From: Verrucosispora sp. WMMD573
Lineage (GTDB): Bacteria; Actinomycetota; Actinomycetes; Mycobacteriales; Micromonosporaceae
NCBI RefSeq assembly: GCF_027497175.1
Contig: NZ_CP114901.1
Coordinates: 2,418,001 to 2,482,000, forward strand
Direction: 5' to 3'
DNA length: 64,000 nt
Part shown: piece after piece, positions 9,707-16,706 of the stretch
Layout: each line of letters opens with the position of its first letter
Numbering within the stretch: position 1 is the first letter of the stretch
Notes under the pieces: generated by a model
Seen by the model: only the letters and a program-made list of their open reading frames with translations
Database searches by the model: none
Told to the model about the DNA's origin: nothing
Translations under genes and position numbers: made by a program

Positions 9707-9781
9707 GCCGATCATGCACTTGTGGCATCAGGAATGTGGGGTTTAGTCCGTCCTGTCCGGTGCCACAACTGCATGATCGGC
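9707..9781. repeat. Palindromic GATCATG-family repeat, copy 3
   Basis: Arms at 9707-9727 and 9761-9781 are complementary over 21 bp with one mismatch. The inner core is GCCGATCATGCACTTGTGGC against its complement, with a 33-nt loop. It starts 38 bp after the DUF559 gene, so that gene is bracketed by copies 2 and 3, which are more like each other than like copies 1 and 4. Confidence 0.85.
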
Positions 9782-9833: not shown

Positions 9834-9866
9834 CTTACAGAACCCTTAACTCCTGCCTGAGAGCGT
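9834..9866 (+). promoter_or_regulatory. Candidate response-regulator site: three half-sites at 11-bp spacing
   Basis: CTTAC (9834), CTTAA (9845) and CCTGA (9856) begin exactly 11 bp apart, the spacing OmpR/PhoB-family regulators use for tandem half-sites. The run ends about 40 bp before the response-regulator start, which suggests autoregulation. The sequence match is weak and the proposal is inferential. Confidence 0.35.
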
Positions 9867-9900
9867 GTGGTCGACAGCGAGGAACACGGGGAGCGGAAGC

Positions 9901-10566
9901 GTGCGGGTGCTGGTGGCAGACGACGAGCGGTTGTTGGCGGACACCGTCGCGGAGGGGTTGCGTCGTCTCTCGATGGCGGTGGACGTCTGCTACGACGGTG
10001 ACGGAGCGTTGGAGCGGGTCGGGGTGAACCGGTACGACGTCGCGGTGCTGGACCGGGACATGCCGGGACATACCGGTGACGAGGTGTGTCGCAGCCTGGC
10101 GGCGTCCGGCTCCGGTACGCGGGTGCTGCTGCTCACCGCTGCCGCCGGCATCAGGGACCGGGTGGAGGGCCTGGGGCTGGGTGCCGACGACTACCTGACC
10201 AAGCCGTTCGCCTTCGCCGAACTGGTTGCGCGGGTGCAGGCGTTGGGCCGGCGCTCCGCCCCGGCAGTCCCGCCGGTGCTGGAGGCGCATGGCGTCGCCC
10301 TGGACGTGGCCCGGCACACCGTCACCCGCGACGGGCGGCCGGTCGGCCTGAGCCCGAAGGAGTTCGCGGTGCTGCACGTGCTGCTCCGCGCCGAGGGTCG
10401 GGTGGTCAGCGCCGAGGAACTGCTGGAACAGGCGTGGGACGAGTTCGCCGATCCGTTCACCAACGTTGTCCGGGTCACCGTGATGACGCTGCGCAAGAAG
10501 CTCGGTGAGCCTCAGGTCATCCACACGGTGCCCCGAGCCGGGTACCGCATCGGCGGTGCCGAGTGA
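9901..10566 (+). CDS. OmpR/PhoB-family response regulator (VanR-like by context)
   Basis: This 221-residue protein has a receiver domain with the acidic pair near residue 7, phosphoacceptor D51 (VAVLDRDMPG), T79 and K101 (DDYLTKPF). A winged-helix DNA-binding domain follows (LSPKEFAVLHVLLRA, VRVTVMTLRKKLG, VHTVPRAGYRIGG form). GTG 9901 follows GGAG. Its stop overlaps the kinase start (GTGA). Position directly before a ligase/dipeptidase gene set suggests it controls that set as VanR does, but this pair also resembles general envelope-stress systems. Confidence 0.85.
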   Translation: MRVLVADDERLLADTVAEGLRRLSMAVDVCYDGDGALERVGVNRYDVAVLDRDMPGHTGDEVCRSLAASGSGTRVLLLTAAAGIRDRVEGLGLGADDYLTKPFAFAELVARVQALGRRSAPAVPPVLEAHGVALDVARHTVTRDGRPVGLSPKEFAVLHVLLRAEGRVVSAEELLEQAWDEFADPFTNVVRVTVMTLRKKLGEPQVIHTVPRAGYRIGGAE

Positions 10567-11621
10567 CCCCGCGTTGGCGCATCGTGCTGGTCGGCGTGCT
10601 CGCCCTGCTGGTCGGGTACAGCCTGCCCGGCCTGACCAAGTCGGTGCTCAGCGAGCTGTGGGTGAGTGCCAGTGGGCTCTGCCACACCGGGCTGCCCGGC
10701 GTGAGTCTGGTGTGCCAGCCGGCACGCGAACTCGTGGGCCTGGCCGTCCCGCTCACCGGGCTGGGCATCCTCGTGCTCTCGATCGCCGGGATCTGGGCCG
10801 CCGCGCTGTGGTGCCTGCGTCCGGTGCGGGCCCTGGCCGGGCCGATCGCGCAGGTCGGGCCGCAGAATCTCGGTCACCGGCTCCGGCCGCGCGGCAACGA
10901 CGAACTTGCCCGGCTGGCCCGGTCCGTCGACGAGATGATGGAACGCATCGCCGCCGGCTACGAGGGACAGCGGCGGTTCGCCGCGAACGCCTCCCACGAA
11001 CTGCGTACGCCGTTGGCGGTGCAGCGGACGTTGATCGAGGTCGGGATGGCCCGCTCGCTCACCGGTGAGCAGCTGGAACTGCTGACCGGGCAGTTGCTGG
11101 AGACCAACGAACGCAACGAGCGGCTCATCGAGGGGCTGCTGGCGCTCAGTGAGAGCGATCAGGGGCTGCGTTCCCGTACCCCGCAGCGGCTCGACGAGAT
11201 CGTCACCGGGGTGCTTGCCGCGTACCAGGACCGGATCGCCGAGGCCGGGTTGACGGTGCACAGTCACCTGGAGCCGCGAATGGTGATGGGCGAGCGGGTG
11301 CTGCTGGAACGCCTGGTGACGAACCTCGTGGAGAACGCGATCAAGTACAACCGGCCGGGCGGCACCCTCACCGTCGCGGTCGGTCGCAACCCGGCCCTGA
11401 CCGTCGTCAACACGGGCCAGGTGGTGCCGGCCGAGGCGGTCGCCGGGCTCTTCGAACCATTCCGGCGGCTGGCCCGGGACCGGACGAACCACAGCGGTGG
11501 TGCCGGCCTCGGCCTGGCCATCGCTCGCTCGATCACGCAGGCCCACGACGGGCTGATCGCCGCCCGCCCCGCCGAGTACGGCGGGTTGAGGGTGGACGTC
11601 CAACTACCCACCGCACCCTGA
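10563..11621 (+). CDS. Sensor histidine kinase (VanS-like by context)
   Basis: This 352-residue kinase has TM1 at about 8-27, a short extracytoplasmic loop of about 30 residues with two cysteines (C40 and C51), and TM2 at about 60-84. HAMP, HisKA with H145 (ANASHELRTPLA), and HATPase with N-box (NLVENAIKYN) and G-box (GAGLGLAIA) follow. The two loop cysteines could form a redox-sensing disulfide, as proposed for CutS-type kinases, or the loop could sense glycopeptide. It is translationally coupled to the regulator. Confidence 0.87.
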   Translation: MTPRWRIVLVGVLALLVGYSLPGLTKSVLSELWVSASGLCHTGLPGVSLVCQPARELVGLAVPLTGLGILVLSIAGIWAAALWCLRPVRALAGPIAQVGPQNLGHRLRPRGNDELARLARSVDEMMERIAAGYEGQRRFAANASHELRTPLAVQRTLIEVGMARSLTGEQLELLTGQLLETNERNERLIEGLLALSESDQGLRSRTPQRLDEIVTGVLAAYQDRIAEAGLTVHSHLEPRMVMGERVLLERLVTNLVENAIKYNRPGGTLTVAVGRNPALTVVNTGQVVPAEAVAGLFEPFRRLARDRTNHSGGAGLGLAIARSITQAHDGLIAARPAEYGGLRVDVQLPTAP

Positions 11622-11692
11622 CCCGGCCGCCCGGCCGGCATCCGAACCAGCACCCGACGGACGGGACCGCACCCGCGGCACCCCGACCTTCG

Positions 11693-11718
11693 GCGTGCCC
11701 GTGAAGCGTGCCCGTGAA
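11693..11718. promoter_or_regulatory. Perfect tandem 13-bp direct repeat upstream of the acyltransferase gene
   Basis: GCGTGCCCGTGAA occurs twice head-to-tail (11693-11705, 11706-11718) in the 279-bp gap between the kinase and the acyltransferase gene. Tandem direct repeats are the usual target form for OmpR-family regulators. The rest of the gap holds no gene and no clear promoter hexamers. Confidence 0.4.
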
Positions 11719-11900
11719 ACGGCCCCGGCGGGCCCGAAAGACGAGCGCTCCCGCCATGCCCGGGAACCGACCCGGCCGCCGGTGACCTGTCCGGCGGGCG
11801 CGACCTGACTGGGCGGCCGGCGACCTCGGCCGCCTGCCAGCGGACGTGAGCGGCATGCCAGTCGCCTGGCCGGCGTGCCAGAGACGGAGAGGAGAGACCC

Positions 11901-13235
11901 ATGACCACCCGCGAACACACCGTGGTCGAGTCGGCCGTGGGCGGGTCCGCCCCCGTCGGTGCGGGCACCAGGCCGGTCTCGCCGGGCACCAGGTTGGCCT
12001 GGGCGGATGTCGCCAAGGGTGGCTGCATCCTGTTGGTACTGCTCTGGCACGTGATCGTCAAGGACTACCTCCAGATCGACTGGCGGCTGGACGTGCCGGT
12101 GCTGGGAGCCTGGGGGACCTTCGGCGAACTGCTGCTACCCATGCGGATGCCGCTGTTCTTCACCATCTCCGGGATGTTCGCGGCGACCGCCGTGCAGCGG
12201 CCCTGGCGGTCGGTCGCCCGGCCCAGGGCCGCCCGCTTCCTCTACCTGTACGGCGTCTGGCTGATGATCCACACTGCCGTACTGGCCCTCGCCCCGGATT
12301 TCCCGACCGACCGGGCGAGCGACCTCGGTGGCCTGTTGGCGCAGCTGACGGTCACCCCCTCGAACCTCTGGTACCTGTACGCGCTGGCGCTGTACTTCGT
12401 ACTGGCGAAGGCACTGCGACGGTTTCCTCCGGCGGTGCTGCTGGTAGCCGCCGGCACGCTGAGTGCCCTCGCCACGGCGGGGCTGGTCGACACTCCCGGT
12501 AACCGGGGCGGTCTGTACCAGAACCTGGTGTTCTTCCTGGCCGGACTGTACCTGCGCAGATACGTCCTTCGGTTCGCCGACGCCGTCACCGGCCGACGAT
12601 TGCTGCTGGCCGGAGCGGCGTACGCCCTCGCGTTGGCTGCCGTGGCGGCGACCGGCACCGCTCGGCTGCCCGGCGTGGCGTTGCTGGTCTCCGTCCTCGC
12701 GGTGCTGTTCGGCATCGCCGTGGCGGTCCGGCTGGTCCGACGGCCGGCGGTGGGCGAGCCGCTTGCCGCCCTCGGCCGGCAGACATTGCCGATCTATGTG
12801 CTCCACATGCCGGTGCTGGCGCTGCTGCATCGACTGATCGCCGAGCCGGTCGCTGGTCTGGACGAACCCGTCCGGCTCGCGTTGGCTCTCGGCTTCCCGT
12901 TCTCGCTCACCGTCGCCGTGCTGGCGATCAGCCTCGGCCTGCACCGGCTGCTGCTGGCGGTCCGGGCGTCGTGGCTGTTCGACCTGCCGGGCGAAGGCAG
13001 CGCCGCCCGGCGACCGACCTCCCGGTACGCCGTCGGCGGCAGAACCGCTCGCACCAACGGCGTCTCGCTGATCACTTCAGAGGAGAGGACATGTCCCACA
13101 CTGATTCGTCCGGAGCCGGCGCGGCTCCGATCGACGTGCCGGCGGCAGCCCGATGGCTGGCCGGCCGGGTGTTGCGTACCCCGGTGCTACGCGCACCCGC
13201 CATCGACCGGCTGCTCGGTGTCCGGGTGCTGCTGA
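11901..13235 (+). CDS. Acyltransferase-3 family membrane protein (VanT membrane-domain-like)
   Basis: The reading frame encodes 444 residues, of which about 1-370 form a polytopic acyltransferase-3 fold with about ten helices. The opening motif LAWADVAKGGCILLVLLWHV and PMRMPLFFTISGMFA carry the family's conserved residues. VanT serine racemases of VanC/E/G operons have a comparable N-terminal membrane domain; here it is a separate gene. AGAGACGGAGAGGAGAGACC precedes the ATG. The frame stays open 145 bp into the next gene, giving an unconvincing Cys/Pro-rich tail; a stop at 13069-13071 exists in another frame, so an indel near the 3' end is possible. Confidence 0.8.
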   Translation: MTTREHTVVESAVGGSAPVGAGTRPVSPGTRLAWADVAKGGCILLVLLWHVIVKDYLQIDWRLDVPVLGAWGTFGELLLPMRMPLFFTISGMFAATAVQRPWRSVARPRAARFLYLYGVWLMIHTAVLALAPDFPTDRASDLGGLLAQLTVTPSNLWYLYALALYFVLAKALRRFPPAVLLVAAGTLSALATAGLVDTPGNRGGLYQNLVFFLAGLYLRRYVLRFADAVTGRRLLLAGAAYALALAAVAATGTARLPGVALLVSVLAVLFGIAVAVRLVRRPAVGEPLAALGRQTLPIYVLHMPVLALLHRLIAEPVAGLDEPVRLALALGFPFSLTVAVLAISLGLHRLLLAVRASWLFDLPGEGSAARRPTSRYAVGGRTARTNGVSLITSEERTCPTLIRPEPARLRSTCRRQPDGWPAGCCVPRCYAHPPSTGCSVSGCC

Positions 13236-14155
13236 AGGCGGAGAACCTTCAGGCCGGGGGCTCGTACAAGATGCGCGGCGGGCTGTACGCGGTGAGCCGG
13301 CTGGCAGCGGCCGGGCACGGCGGGGTGGTCGCCCAGAGCACCGGTAACCACGCGGTGGCGGTGGCGCTCGCGGCTCGGCGGTTCGAACTGGCCGCCACGG
13401 TGGTACTTCCGGTCGACGCGGCAGCGACGAAGGTGGCCCGGGCCCGCGCGGCAGGAGCGCGGGTGGTGCTCGCCGGTACGACGGTCGAGGAGCGGCTGGC
13501 CGTGGCCCGCCGGGTGCGGGACGAGACCGGCCACCCGATCGTCGACGCGTACGACCATCCGGACGTCATCGCCGGGCAGGGCAGTGCCAGCCTCGAACTG
13601 ATCGAGGAAGCCGAACGGGCCGGTACCCCACTCGACGCCCTCGTGCTGCCGGTCGGTGGCGGGGGCGGTGCGGCCGGTGCCTGCCTGGCCGCGGCCGGTC
13701 GGCCGATCGAGGTGTACGGGGTGGAGCCGCATGGCTGTGACTCGCTGGCCCGCAGCCTGGCGGCCGGTCGGCCCGTTCCGGTCAGGCCCGCACCGACCAT
13801 CGCCGACGGACTGCGCCCCTCCTGTGTGGGTGAGCTGCCCTTCGCCATCCTGCGCACCCGGCTGCGCGGTGTGGTCCGGGTGGACGACGACGAGATCGCC
13901 GAGGCGTTCCGGCTGCTCCTGTTGGAGCTGAAGATGCTGGCCGAGCCGTCGGGGGCAGCCGGCCTGGCGGGCGCGCTACGGCTCGCCACCGTCGGCACGC
14001 TGCGGGCGCCTGCCGCCGAGCGGTTGCCGGACGGCGTCGCCGGTGCACGGCGGCGAACGGTTGGCGTGGTGCTGACCGGCGGAAACGTGGAGGCGGAACT
14101 GGTCGCCCGACTGGCGGCAGCCGCCCGACCCGAGGAAGAGGTGGCAGTGGCATGA
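13091..14155 (+). CDS. PLP-dependent serine racemase/threonine dehydratase-like enzyme (fold type II)
   Basis: This 354-residue protein has the fold-type II PLP signature: Schiff-base lysine K60 in GGSYKMRGGLYAV, the STGNHAVAVAL loop at 83-93, and the glycine-rich phosphate loop LPVGGGGGAAGACLA. Eukaryotic serine racemases use Ser84 of SSGNH as second catalytic acid, whereas dehydratases have SAGNH; the Thr here keeps a hydroxyl. D-serine production is inferred from this and from the ligase and dipeptidase downstream; serine/threonine dehydratase remains the alternative. ATG 13091 has AGAGGAGAGG just upstream. The stop overlaps the ligase ATG. Confidence 0.82.
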   Translation: MSHTDSSGAGAAPIDVPAAARWLAGRVLRTPVLRAPAIDRLLGVRVLLKAENLQAGGSYKMRGGLYAVSRLAAAGHGGVVAQSTGNHAVAVALAARRFELAATVVLPVDAAATKVARARAAGARVVLAGTTVEERLAVARRVRDETGHPIVDAYDHPDVIAGQGSASLELIEEAERAGTPLDALVLPVGGGGGAAGACLAAAGRPIEVYGVEPHGCDSLARSLAAGRPVPVRPAPTIADGLRPSCVGELPFAILRTRLRGVVRVDDDEIAEAFRLLLLELKMLAEPSGAAGLAGALRLATVGTLRAPAAERLPDGVAGARRRTVGVVLTGGNVEAELVARLAAAARPEEEVAVA

Positions 14156-15276
14156 GTGCACCCGTACGCATTGGAATTCTGTTCGGTGGTCCGTCGGCGG
14201 AACACGACGTGTCCTGCGCGTCCGCGCTCGGTGTGGCCCGGGCGCTTGCCGGCGGCGGCTACCGCATCGTCGCCATCGGGGTCACCCGCGCTGGTGGGCT
14301 GCGGCTCGTTCCGGACGCGGCGCTGTCCGGGTTCCTGGCTGGCACGGCATCGGAGCGCGCCATCGACGACCGGCTGACGGTGATCGGGCCGGCCGTGGAA
14401 CTGCGGGCCGGGCCGCGTGCCGGTACGGCGGTGGTGACCGGGATGGACGCGCCCGGCGCGGTGCACGCCGAGTTGGACGTGGTCTTCCCGGTGCTGCACG
14501 GCCCGTTCGGTGAGGACGGGGTGGTGCAGGGGGTGCTCGAATCCCTGGGCGTGCCGTACGTCGGGTGCGGCATCCTCGCCTCCGCCGTCGGGATGGACAA
14601 GGTGGCGATGAAGCGCGCGTTGCGGGCCGAGGGGGTGCCGATCACCCCGCACGTCTCCTTCGACGCGAGCACGTACCGGACGACGGAGGATCCGGAGAAG
14701 CTGGTGCTGGGGCTGAGTCGCCCGCTGTTCGTCAAGCCGGCCCGGATGGGCTCCTCGATCGGTATCTCCCGGGTGGCCGAGGGCGATGACCTGGGGGCGG
14801 CGATCGAGGAGGCGCTGCGGCACGACACGGTGGTCGTGGTGGAGCAGGGGGTCAGCGGCCGGGAGCTGGAGTGCGGGGTGCTCGGCGGTGCCCGTCCGGA
14901 CGCGTCCTCGGTCGGCGAGGTACGGGTCAGCGGTGGTTGGTTCGACTACCGCCAGAAGTACTTCGGCGACAGCGATCCGATGGTCGTCCCGGCCCCGCTG
15001 TCACGGGAGGTGACCGAGCGGATCAGGGAGCTGTCGGTGCGGGCGTTCGCTGCGATCGGTGGCTGGGGCCTGGCCCGGGTCGACTTCCTCTACGACGAGG
15101 CCGGCGGCGAGTTGTACGTCAACGAGTTGAACACGATGCCGGGCTTCACCGCCCACTCGATGTACCCGAAGGTGTGGGCGGCGGCCGGCATCGGCTACCG
15201 GGAGATCCTGGACCGTCTCGTCGCGCTGGCCTTCGCCTGGCACGCGGAGCGGCCCCGTGGGGGAGGCGAGCGATGA
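14152..15276 (+). CDS. D-alanine--D-X ligase (Ddl/VanC-like, candidate D-Ala-D-Ser ligase)
   Basis: This 374-residue ATP-grasp ligase has E17 of GGPSAEHDVS, VGMDKVAMK, FVKPARMGSSIGISRV, and ELNTMPGFTAHSMYPK near the C-terminus. The omega loop reads WFDYRQKY (263-270), matching Ddl and D-Ser ligases such as VanC/E/G rather than the His-containing loop of D-lactate ligases VanA/VanB. D-Ser as second substrate is inferred from the adjacent racemase-like gene and absence of vanH. It could instead be a glycopeptide-insensitive extra Ddl. The ATGA overlap on both sides shows tight coupling. Confidence 0.85.
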   Translation: MSAPVRIGILFGGPSAEHDVSCASALGVARALAGGGYRIVAIGVTRAGGLRLVPDAALSGFLAGTASERAIDDRLTVIGPAVELRAGPRAGTAVVTGMDAPGAVHAELDVVFPVLHGPFGEDGVVQGVLESLGVPYVGCGILASAVGMDKVAMKRALRAEGVPITPHVSFDASTYRTTEDPEKLVLGLSRPLFVKPARMGSSIGISRVAEGDDLGAAIEEALRHDTVVVVEQGVSGRELECGVLGGARPDASSVGEVRVSGGWFDYRQKYFGDSDPMVVPAPLSREVTERIRELSVRAFAAIGGWGLARVDFLYDEAGGELYVNELNTMPGFTAHSMYPKVWAAAGIGYREILDRLVALAFAWHAERPRGGGER

Positions 15277-15908
15277 TCCTCCTCTGTGATCCGCGGGTCG
15301 CGGCGGTACGCGGTGTCGACGACGGTGAGCCGCTGGTCGACCTGCGCGAGGTCCCCGAGCTGCGATTGGATTCTCGGGCGGCCGATCCGGCCGGCGCGTA
15401 CGCCCGATTGCGCCAGCCGGTGGTGGACCGGTTGCTGGCGGCGCAGCGGGCGCTGCCCGACGGCCTGCGCCTGCTGATCGTCGAGGGGTATCGGCCCTAC
15501 CAGGCGCAGCTGAACATCTTCACCGGCTACCAGGAGGAGTTGCGGCGCGCCCACCCGGACTGGTCGCCGGAGCGGCTGTACCGGGAGACGACCAAGTTCG
15601 TCTCACCGGTGGAGGTGGCGCCGCACAGCACCGGTGGCGCGGTGGATCTCACCCTGTGCACCGTGGACGGCGTCGAACTGGACATGGGCACGGCGGTGGA
15701 CGCCACCCCGGAGGCGAGCGACGACGCCTGTTTCACCGCAGCGTCGTCGATCGGCCGCGACGCCCGCCGGCACCGGCAGATCATGGCTGCTGCCCTACGC
15801 GGCGTCGGCCTGGTGAATTACCCCACCGAGTGGTGGCACTGGTCGTACGGGGATCGCTACTGGGCGTTGCTGACCGGCGCGCCGCACACCCGATACGGAC
15901 CGATATGA
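15273..15908 (+). CDS. VanX-type D-Ala-D-Ala dipeptidase (peptidase M15D)
   Basis: This 211-residue protein carries the VanX catalytic set: R74 in VEGYRPYQ, zinc ligands H118 and D125 in APHSTGGAVDL, and E186/H189 in TEWWHW. It has no signal peptide, so it acts in the cytoplasm on D-Ala-D-Ala, removing the normal precursor in favour of the ligase product. The length matches VanX (about 202). GGGAGG precedes the ATG, which overlaps the ligase stop. It is the last gene of the van-like unit; carboxypeptidase (VanY) activity cannot be judged. Confidence 0.9.
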   Translation: MILLCDPRVAAVRGVDDGEPLVDLREVPELRLDSRAADPAGAYARLRQPVVDRLLAAQRALPDGLRLLIVEGYRPYQAQLNIFTGYQEELRRAHPDWSPERLYRETTKFVSPVEVAPHSTGGAVDLTLCTVDGVELDMGTAVDATPEASDDACFTAASSIGRDARRHRQIMAAALRGVGLVNYPTEWWHWSYGDRYWALLTGAPHTRYGPI

Positions 15909-16028: not shown

Positions 16029-16706
16029 GTGAAGCTGCAGCGGAAGCACATGCTGGCGGCGGGGGTGGCGGTGGTCGCCGCGGCGACGGTGGCGGTCGGC
16101 ACCGGGCTGGGATTCGCTGACAGCGCACCGAATCGGCAGAGCGTCTGCGCGGGATCGATCACGTTCTCGGCCGAGGCGGGTGCACCGGCGGCCACCAGCA
16201 ACCAGTTCCCGGTCGGTACCCGGCTGCGGGTGACGAACCTCGACAACGACAGATCGGCCGAGGTGACCGTGGTCGGCCCGTCGGGCAGTTGCGTGTTGCT
16301 CAACGCCGCCGCGATGGAACTCGTCCGCGAGCCCGGCAAGAACGTGATCCGGAACAACGTGGTCGAGCGCATCGGCGCCGCCGCGCAGCCGGGCGCGGGA
16401 CAGCCGGGCGTGATCGGCGACCGGCCAGGTTCAGCCTCACCGCCGGCGGCCCGTCCGGTCACCGGGTCGGCCTGTCAGGGCGCGATCACCTTCTTCGAGG
16501 AGGCCGCCGGACCGGCCGCGACGAGCGACCGCTTCCCGGTCGGCACCCGGCTCCGGGTGACCAACGTGGACAACAACAGGGCGACCACGGTCACCATCAC
16601 CGGCCCGTCCGGCAGCTGCGTGCTGCTGAACTCCGCCGCCATGGAGCAGATCCGGGAGCCGGGCAAGAACCTGGTACGCAACAACATCGTCGAGGTGCTG
16701 CGCTGA
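16029..16706 (+). CDS. Secreted protein with two RlpA-like double-psi beta-barrel repeats
   Basis: This 225-residue protein has a signal peptide (MLAAGVAVVAAATVAVGTGL) and two copies of a domain of about 75 residues, at roughly 38-113 and 147-225. Each contains ITF.EEA.GPAATS-type starts, FPVGTRLRVTN and GPSGSCVLLN.AAME..REPGKN. FPVGTRLRVTN is the hallmark of RlpA/DPBB folds. The lytic transglycosylase Asp seems absent (GPSGSC instead of DRGPF), so it may be a binding protein. GGGAG precedes the GTG start. It follows the van-like cluster in the same direction after 120 bp and may belong functionally with cell-wall stress. Confidence 0.72.
   Translation: MKLQRKHMLAAGVAVVAAATVAVGTGLGFADSAPNRQSVCAGSITFSAEAGAPAATSNQFPVGTRLRVTNLDNDRSAEVTVVGPSGSCVLLNAAAMELVREPGKNVIRNNVVERIGAAAQPGAGQPGVIGDRPGSASPPAARPVTGSACQGAITFFEEAAGPAATSDRFPVGTRLRVTNVDNNRATTVTITGPSGSCVLLNSAAMEQIREPGKNLVRNNIVEVLR

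Follow-up and report, generated by a model that had tools for sequence, protein, structure and literature searches.

What would terminate the cell-wall precursors made with a Van-like gene cluster that carries a racemase candidate and a Ddl-like ligase? This question is raised by six adjacent genes of Verrucosispora sp. WMMD573 (NZ_CP114901.1), situated in a stretch of 64,000 nucleotides (positions 2,418,001 to 2,482,000; hereafter the window) of a genome of 6,495,827 bases. An earlier note on this DNA had claimed that the gene content predicts precursors ending in D-Ala-D-Ser. We consider it about an even chance (0.5) that the genes form a VanRS-controlled operon remodelling cell-wall precursors so that they do not end in D-Ala. 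D-Ser is a plausible leading candidate for the terminal residue, by analogy with the logic of VanT and not by the residues of the ligase. This reading rests on the conserved gene order, a housekeeping ddl elsewhere in the genome, an invariant Phe at position 252 (VanG numbering) of the ligase, the invariance of T84 and R135 in the putative racemase, the occurrence of the same subfamily of acyltransferase-3 (AT3) proteins near alanine-racemase-fold (Alr) and Ddl genes, the union of AT3 and Alr in a clostridial-class VanT, and a candidate operator.

The cluster and the D-Ala-D-Ser idea are not new, both having been published in 2021. The passages of PMC8698665 that deal with it name the locus the Micromonosporales "pdx operon", describe its ligases as a distinct clade among the housekeeping Ddl, and already suggest D-Ala-D-Ser-like remodelling. 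The present genes agree with the definition given there (PALP, Ddl-like and VanX-like genes beside VanRS in the Micromonosporales), having in common with it VanRS, a PALP enzyme, a Ddl-like ligase, a VanX-like dipeptidase and the host group. We found no mention of the AT3 gene in the main text of that paper, where the sole match to words for such a protein is one reference title. Relative to its main-text passages, the ligase residue determinants, the AT3-Alr-Ddl clusters and the operator described below are new; what is new is that one AT3 subfamily accompanies racemase-type genes of two unrelated folds. The features are as follows:

9834..9848, + strand: candidate VanR operator CTTAC-N6-CTTA, tandem half-sites with 11-bp spacing (pattern upstream of vanR)
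9865..10566, + strand: VanR-like OmpR-family response regulator (PF00072 and PF00486)
10563..11621, + strand: VanS-like sensor kinase (HAMP, HisKA, HATPase_c)
11901..13235, + strand: AT3 (Acyl_transf_3) membrane protein (PF01757, E 1.7e-31)
13091..14155, + strand: fold-type II pyridoxal phosphate (PLP) enzyme (PALP), candidate amino-acid racemase (PF00291, E 2.4e-70)
14152..15276, + strand: Ddl-like ligase with WF signature (PF07478/PF01820)
15273..15908, + strand: VanX-like M15 dipeptidase (PF01427, E 3.1e-18)

The open reading frame listing and the Pfam and NCBIfam families bear out the six genes and their common direction as they had been described, and with them a Van-like gene logic. The junctions are likewise as claimed, with overlaps of the ATGA/GTGA type at 10563, 14152 and 15273 and, from the frame coordinates, a 145-bp overlap between AT3 and PLP genes and a 279-bp gap (11622-11900) between VanS and AT3. 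The VanX frame, with an ATG at 15273, ends at 15908 where the note had ended the cluster; its start, 9901, falls inside VanR, which begins at 9865. The PLP gene occupies an open frame of 12971-14155 with a likely ATG start at 13091, ahead of which stands AGAGGAGAGGAC.

The ligase exceeds the curated Ddl models (NF002528, 392.4 bits versus a cut-off of 262; TIGR01205, 328.1 versus 245.65), and stays below those for D-Ala-D-Ser ligases (NF000207, 244.3 versus 520), VanG (276.4 versus 495) and D-Lac ligases (231.9 versus 550). The cluster has the VanRS and VanX logic in common with vanHAX (D-Ala-D-Lac) and differs from it in two ways: the ligase keeps the K-Y omega loop (WFDYRQKY, as had been noted), and the reported absence of a D-lactate dehydrogenase holds among the six genes, VanH not having been searched for genome-wide. 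A separate housekeeping ddl, which the note had wanted looked for, is present at 2831547-2832686 of the genome, so that the operon ligase is not its only ddl. A third Ddl-like ATP-grasp protein (33% identity; G000:C1:1470176, L093 5808-6809) lies, by eye, directly 3' of an aminotransferase-like gene.

We take the D-Ser determinants of VanG to be Asp243, Phe252 and Arg324, and D, F and R were found at these positions when counted on PDB 4FU0. The corresponding residues of the window ligase are G255, F264 and M337, and the same G/F/M pattern, with one of the three determinants, is shared by all 62 pdx relatives compared (47 of them distinct, from 36 named loci). The 62 rows exceed limits of 60% identity and 330 aligned residues, and loci whose ligase is partial or missing, such as L054, L070 and L075, were dropped; this count and those of 63 and 39 used below leave out the loci of the window's own genome. 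At position 252 all 31 Ddl examined have Tyr (29 from a search of the phylum, the genome's own housekeeping Ddl and E. coli DdlA); the phylum search gave 47 places, and this comparison left out the ligase of the window itself and 16 places with weaker matches. Phe stands there in five of five VanG (of six above the curated cut-off), the single VanI, five of five ligases associated with AT3 and Alr, and 13 pdx rows plus the window. The Trp preceding Phe252 is uninformative, being found also in 4 of the 29 phylum Ddl. VanI, a D-Lac-type ligase, carries D/F/R as VanG does, and the three residues therefore mark Van ligases more widely and are not unique to D-Ser ligases. With one determinant of three in the pdx ligase, D-Ser is neither predicted nor excluded by residues.

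In a quick tree with SH-aLRT support only, the pdx ligases form one clade (100) apart from VanG and VanI (100), and the genome's own housekeeping Ddl groups with relatives from the order and with the AT3-Alr ligases (98), apart from the pdx clade. This placing of the pdx ligases agrees with the published tree as described in PMC8698665. In our tree the window ligase has as its nearest named relative that of Verrucosispora sediminis (L043), among Micromonospora. The ligase departs from Ddl at position 252. Its clade lies among actinobacterial Ddl and not with VanG/VanI. RGI labels as "vanG" a match in an E. coli record (L094); this protein resembles E. coli DdlA, and we counted it as a Ddl only.

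The PLP enzyme is of the PF00291 family and not PF01168, and so is not a serine racemase of the VanT type. Its best PDB matches are the threonine deaminase 1ve5 (top) and the serine racemases 5cvc and 1v71, and it exceeds no curated cut-off among the matches listed (25 of 42 NCBIfam models). Residue 84 aligns with S84 of human serine racemase, the re-face base, and K60, T84, K114 and R135 do not vary among the 63 relative rows (47 distinct); Thr84 is also found in every row of a 30-row alignment reaching down to 61% identity. With a si-face Lys (K60), a re-face hydroxyl (T84, not Ser) and R135, the protein has residues expected of a fold-II serine racemase and may have this activity. According to the mutant descriptions in PMC6424897, S84T is the only position-84 mutant of the human enzyme that keeps L-Ser racemisation, tenfold down, S84A, S84D and S84N having lost it. 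The loop at 152-155 is DAYD, versus HPNQ in the human enzyme, and of the two divalent-metal ligands of the racemase the counterpart of E210 is kept (E212). A structure predicted without an alignment had a mean pLDDT of 40.7 and was not used.

AT3 matches at E<=1e-40 occur in 20 of 121 family genomes, and wider flanks were fetched for 10 of the 20 loci. Three are pdx clusters (L129-L131), and five (L132, L133, L143, L145, L146) have both a gene of the alanine-racemase fold and a second Ddl in their neighbourhood. In their wider regions (L149, L150, L151, L154, L155) these Micromonosporaceae clusters have in common with pdx the AT3 subfamily (48-65% identity) and a racemase-fold gene with a Ddl paralogue bearing Phe252. 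They differ in that the racemase is of the Alr fold and the ligases have an L/F/Q pattern and form a separate clade; their gene order varies, an opposite-strand frame lying between AT3 and racemase in L154. In our alignment the partner racemases are without Tyr at the Tyr354 position of alanine racemase, having His in four of five and Asn in one; the genome's own housekeeping Alr has Tyr there (TINYEI), and VanT has Asn (alignment, and also a passage in PMC3485190). The L155 racemase is in addition without a stretch near the catalytic Tyr and, judged by its sequence, may be inactive. A MurG-like gene (GT28) lies beside the L155 set.

In P0241, a clostridial-class VanT above the vanT-G cut-off, AT3 and Alr are joined in one protein, which the placing of AT3 beside a PLP or Alr-fold gene may be said to resemble. 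The VanG-type operons (clostridial-class loci L124-L128; VanG 4FU0) have in common with the window Phe252 in the ligase and an AT3-class membrane part with a racemase; unlike the window operon they have a fold III racemase fused to AT3 and a ligase with Asp243 and Arg324, and a frame of ca. 250 amino acids, presumed to be VanXY, sits between ligase and VanT. The window AT3 matched PF01757 and no VanT model at E 1e-3. A passage in PMC9558356 describes the role of AT3 in VanT as unknown, with L-Ser transport proposed.

Several apparent fusions were considered and rejected. AT3-PLP "fusion proteins" of about 700-750 amino acids (best 120 of 524) keep an AAGGAGA...ATG start at the PLP gene, which was found in 10 of 10 named joined-frame loci (8 by script, plus L064 and L062); they are therefore treated as gene pairs with readable linkers. 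P0086 (AT3 plus Ala_racemase_N) holds, by eye, only the beginning of a racemase, and in L149 and L150 AT3 and racemase are in different frames. The long overlap in the window is not conserved. The alignment of its AT3 with that of L043 ends at residue 375, the residues after about 375 are not conserved, and the last 48 are PLP-gene DNA read in another frame. None of 19 other separate-frame rows has a 145-bp overlap; the AT3 frame stops 19-20 bp before the PLP gene in the nearest relatives (L039, L040, L042-L044), and the overlap is 49 bp in L041, L051, L076 and L013.

Among 250 Micromonosporaceae genomes, 56 have relatives of the PLP enzyme at E<=1e-60, with 46-51% identity in the weakest cases. 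A phylum-wide sample of 296 genomes gave, at E<=1e-70, a match in the genome of the window only. A scan of genome contigs gave an orthologue (at least 65% identity) in 39 of 53 loci, the 14 distant loci (<=36% identity) being dropped. Many Micromonospora loci have the same gene order, which is hence not a chance arrangement. In the 39 named loci AT3 is in a separate frame in 12, in one frame with the PLP gene in 10, absent in 16 and uncalled in 1; among 69 rows (these 39, 29 other loci and the window), which overlap in species and are not independent, the figures are 20, 17, 31 and 1. Fragments of AT3 survive in three of the 16 AT3-less loci (L057, L061, L070), pointing to its repeated loss.

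The regulators stay below their curated cut-offs: the best NCBIfam model for VanR is vanR-O (269.6 bits versus 505), and VanS scores 138.1 versus 720 with HK_VanS_O, two non-Van kinase models scoring higher. Besides the window, 36 of the 39 named loci have the core of the candidate operator box upstream of vanR; the exceptions are L045 (a variant), L040 (the contig ends before that DNA) and L071 (without a VanR match). A stricter pattern derived from this box has one match in the 6.5-Mb genome and none in a reversed control; no such box turned up in the ten wider AT3 loci that lack pdx. Transcription thus probably starts upstream of vanR and not at 11901, a single promoter probably serving the whole operon. 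In the dipeptidase, R75, H119, D126, E187 and H190 (numbered from codon 15270), whose roles are taken to be those of VanX, are present in 39 of 39 relative rows; the VanX equivalog NF033115 gives 45.1 bits versus 320, below its cut-off, with the catalytic motifs kept. A second Peptidase_M15 match lies at G000:C1:4586569-4587234, away from the genome's Ddl-type ligase matches.

We would envisage that VanR and VanS control the operon and that the work of VanT is shared here between two gene products, AT3 and the PLP enzyme. AT3 would supply or handle an amino acid at the membrane, which the fold-II enzyme would racemise, most likely L-Ser to D-Ser. The ligase would join D-Ala to that D-amino acid and, judged by its family and motif, VanX would remove D-Ala-D-Ala. 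Housekeeping MurF loads the ligase product. More tentatively, and with somewhat less than even confidence, we propose that VanT-like membrane-racemase pairs arose in Micromonosporaceae from two unrelated racemase folds (AT3 with a fold-II enzyme, or AT3 with an Alr-fold enzyme and a second Ddl), and that the pdx ligase, with Phe252 and Met324, makes D-Ala-D-X by a code unlike that of VanC/E/G, X being D-Ser or another D-amino acid. If so, environmental actinobacteria have one more way of altering the ends of their peptidoglycan, with a racemase module from an unrelated fold, and the AT3 domain of VanT gains a natural counterpart to be compared with; the published pdx operon gains specific, testable residue and substrate predictions.

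A number of observations weigh against remodelling to a non-D-Ala terminus. At the positions of Asp243 and Arg324 of VanG the ligase carries Gly and Met, the same as most Ddl. The closest curated models of the PLP enzyme are threo-3-hydroxy-L-Asp ammonia-lyase (243 versus 452 bits) and threonine ammonia-lyase, and the position of the metal ligand D216 of human serine racemase is Ser218 in 63 of 63 rows. Of the 39 named clusters 16 have no AT3, and beyond the shared PF01757 no significant direct similarity between the pdx AT3 and the VanT membrane domain was found, direct homology being rejected on BLASTP (E 2.2), hmmsearch (best full-sequence E 0.033) and hhalign (probability 3%). Four of the 20 AT3 loci (L139-L142) stand beside a VanX-like gene, 62-65% identical to that of the window, and neither a racemase nor a ligase was found near them; eight more are without racemase, ligase or VanX in the DNA examined, some of them having VanR/VanS-like matches, which are common. 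Lastly, no ligase was found between PLP and VanX genes in L036, which keeps both flanking genes, and L034 and L054 keep PLP and VanX with only a C-terminal piece of the ligase. AT3 with a VanX-like gene and without racemase or ligase is also listed at L152 and L153; wider flanks were available only for L139 and L142.

The ammonia-lyase models, together with the threonine deaminase as top structure and the conservation of S84 and R135 in L-THA dehydratases too (as described in PMC6424897), suit another explanation, in which the PLP enzyme is, in line with the published annotation, a genuine dehydratase of L-Ser/L-Thr (or hydroxyaspartate) and no D-Ser is made, the operon tuning precursor pools or removing inhibitory amino acids. 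We think this unlikely: the six genes include no dehydrogenase that could use a keto acid, another PALP paralogue of the genome (2382713) has a SAGNH motif with Ala at position 84, and the same AT3 subfamily lies near a racemase-fold gene elsewhere. Since sequence cannot decide between racemase and dehydratase, and two of the three D-Ser determinants are Ddl-like in a ligase far below the curated D-Ala-D-Ser models, the earlier prediction is not supported in the form in which it was made.

The ligase might alternatively make D-Ala-D-Ala, the operon being an inducible extra Ddl, for instance under a Ddl inhibitor, and the VanX-like protein acting on another dipeptide. The Gly and Met, the retained KY, the scores with TIGR01205 and NF002528 and the place of the clade in the tree are all in keeping with this; Phe252 in every relative examined, unlike every Ddl examined, is not. 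The product would also be undone by the operon's own VanX, and no PLP enzyme would be needed, so that we regard this reading as quite improbable. A different matter is purpose, on which remodelling is compatible with a function in development or stress instead of glycopeptide resistance. The operon is present in many Micromonospora genomes and a natural cell-wall-remodelling role is raised by the authors in a passage of PMC8698665, to which the VanRS-like regulators are opposed; such a role is possible, though we lean against it.

Some minor observations concern the DNA around the operon. The gene that follows it (16029-16706) has its best match in the SCO2207 family at 219.9 bits, below the cut-off of 250, and it recurs downstream of the operon in many relatives. 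Between an AbiEi-like gene and vanR is an imperfect 22-nucleotide inverted repeat (9707-9728 / 9760-9781) with a predicted fold of -46 kcal/mol, possibly a terminator. Its counterpart in L042 has different arms which, by eye, still look complementary.

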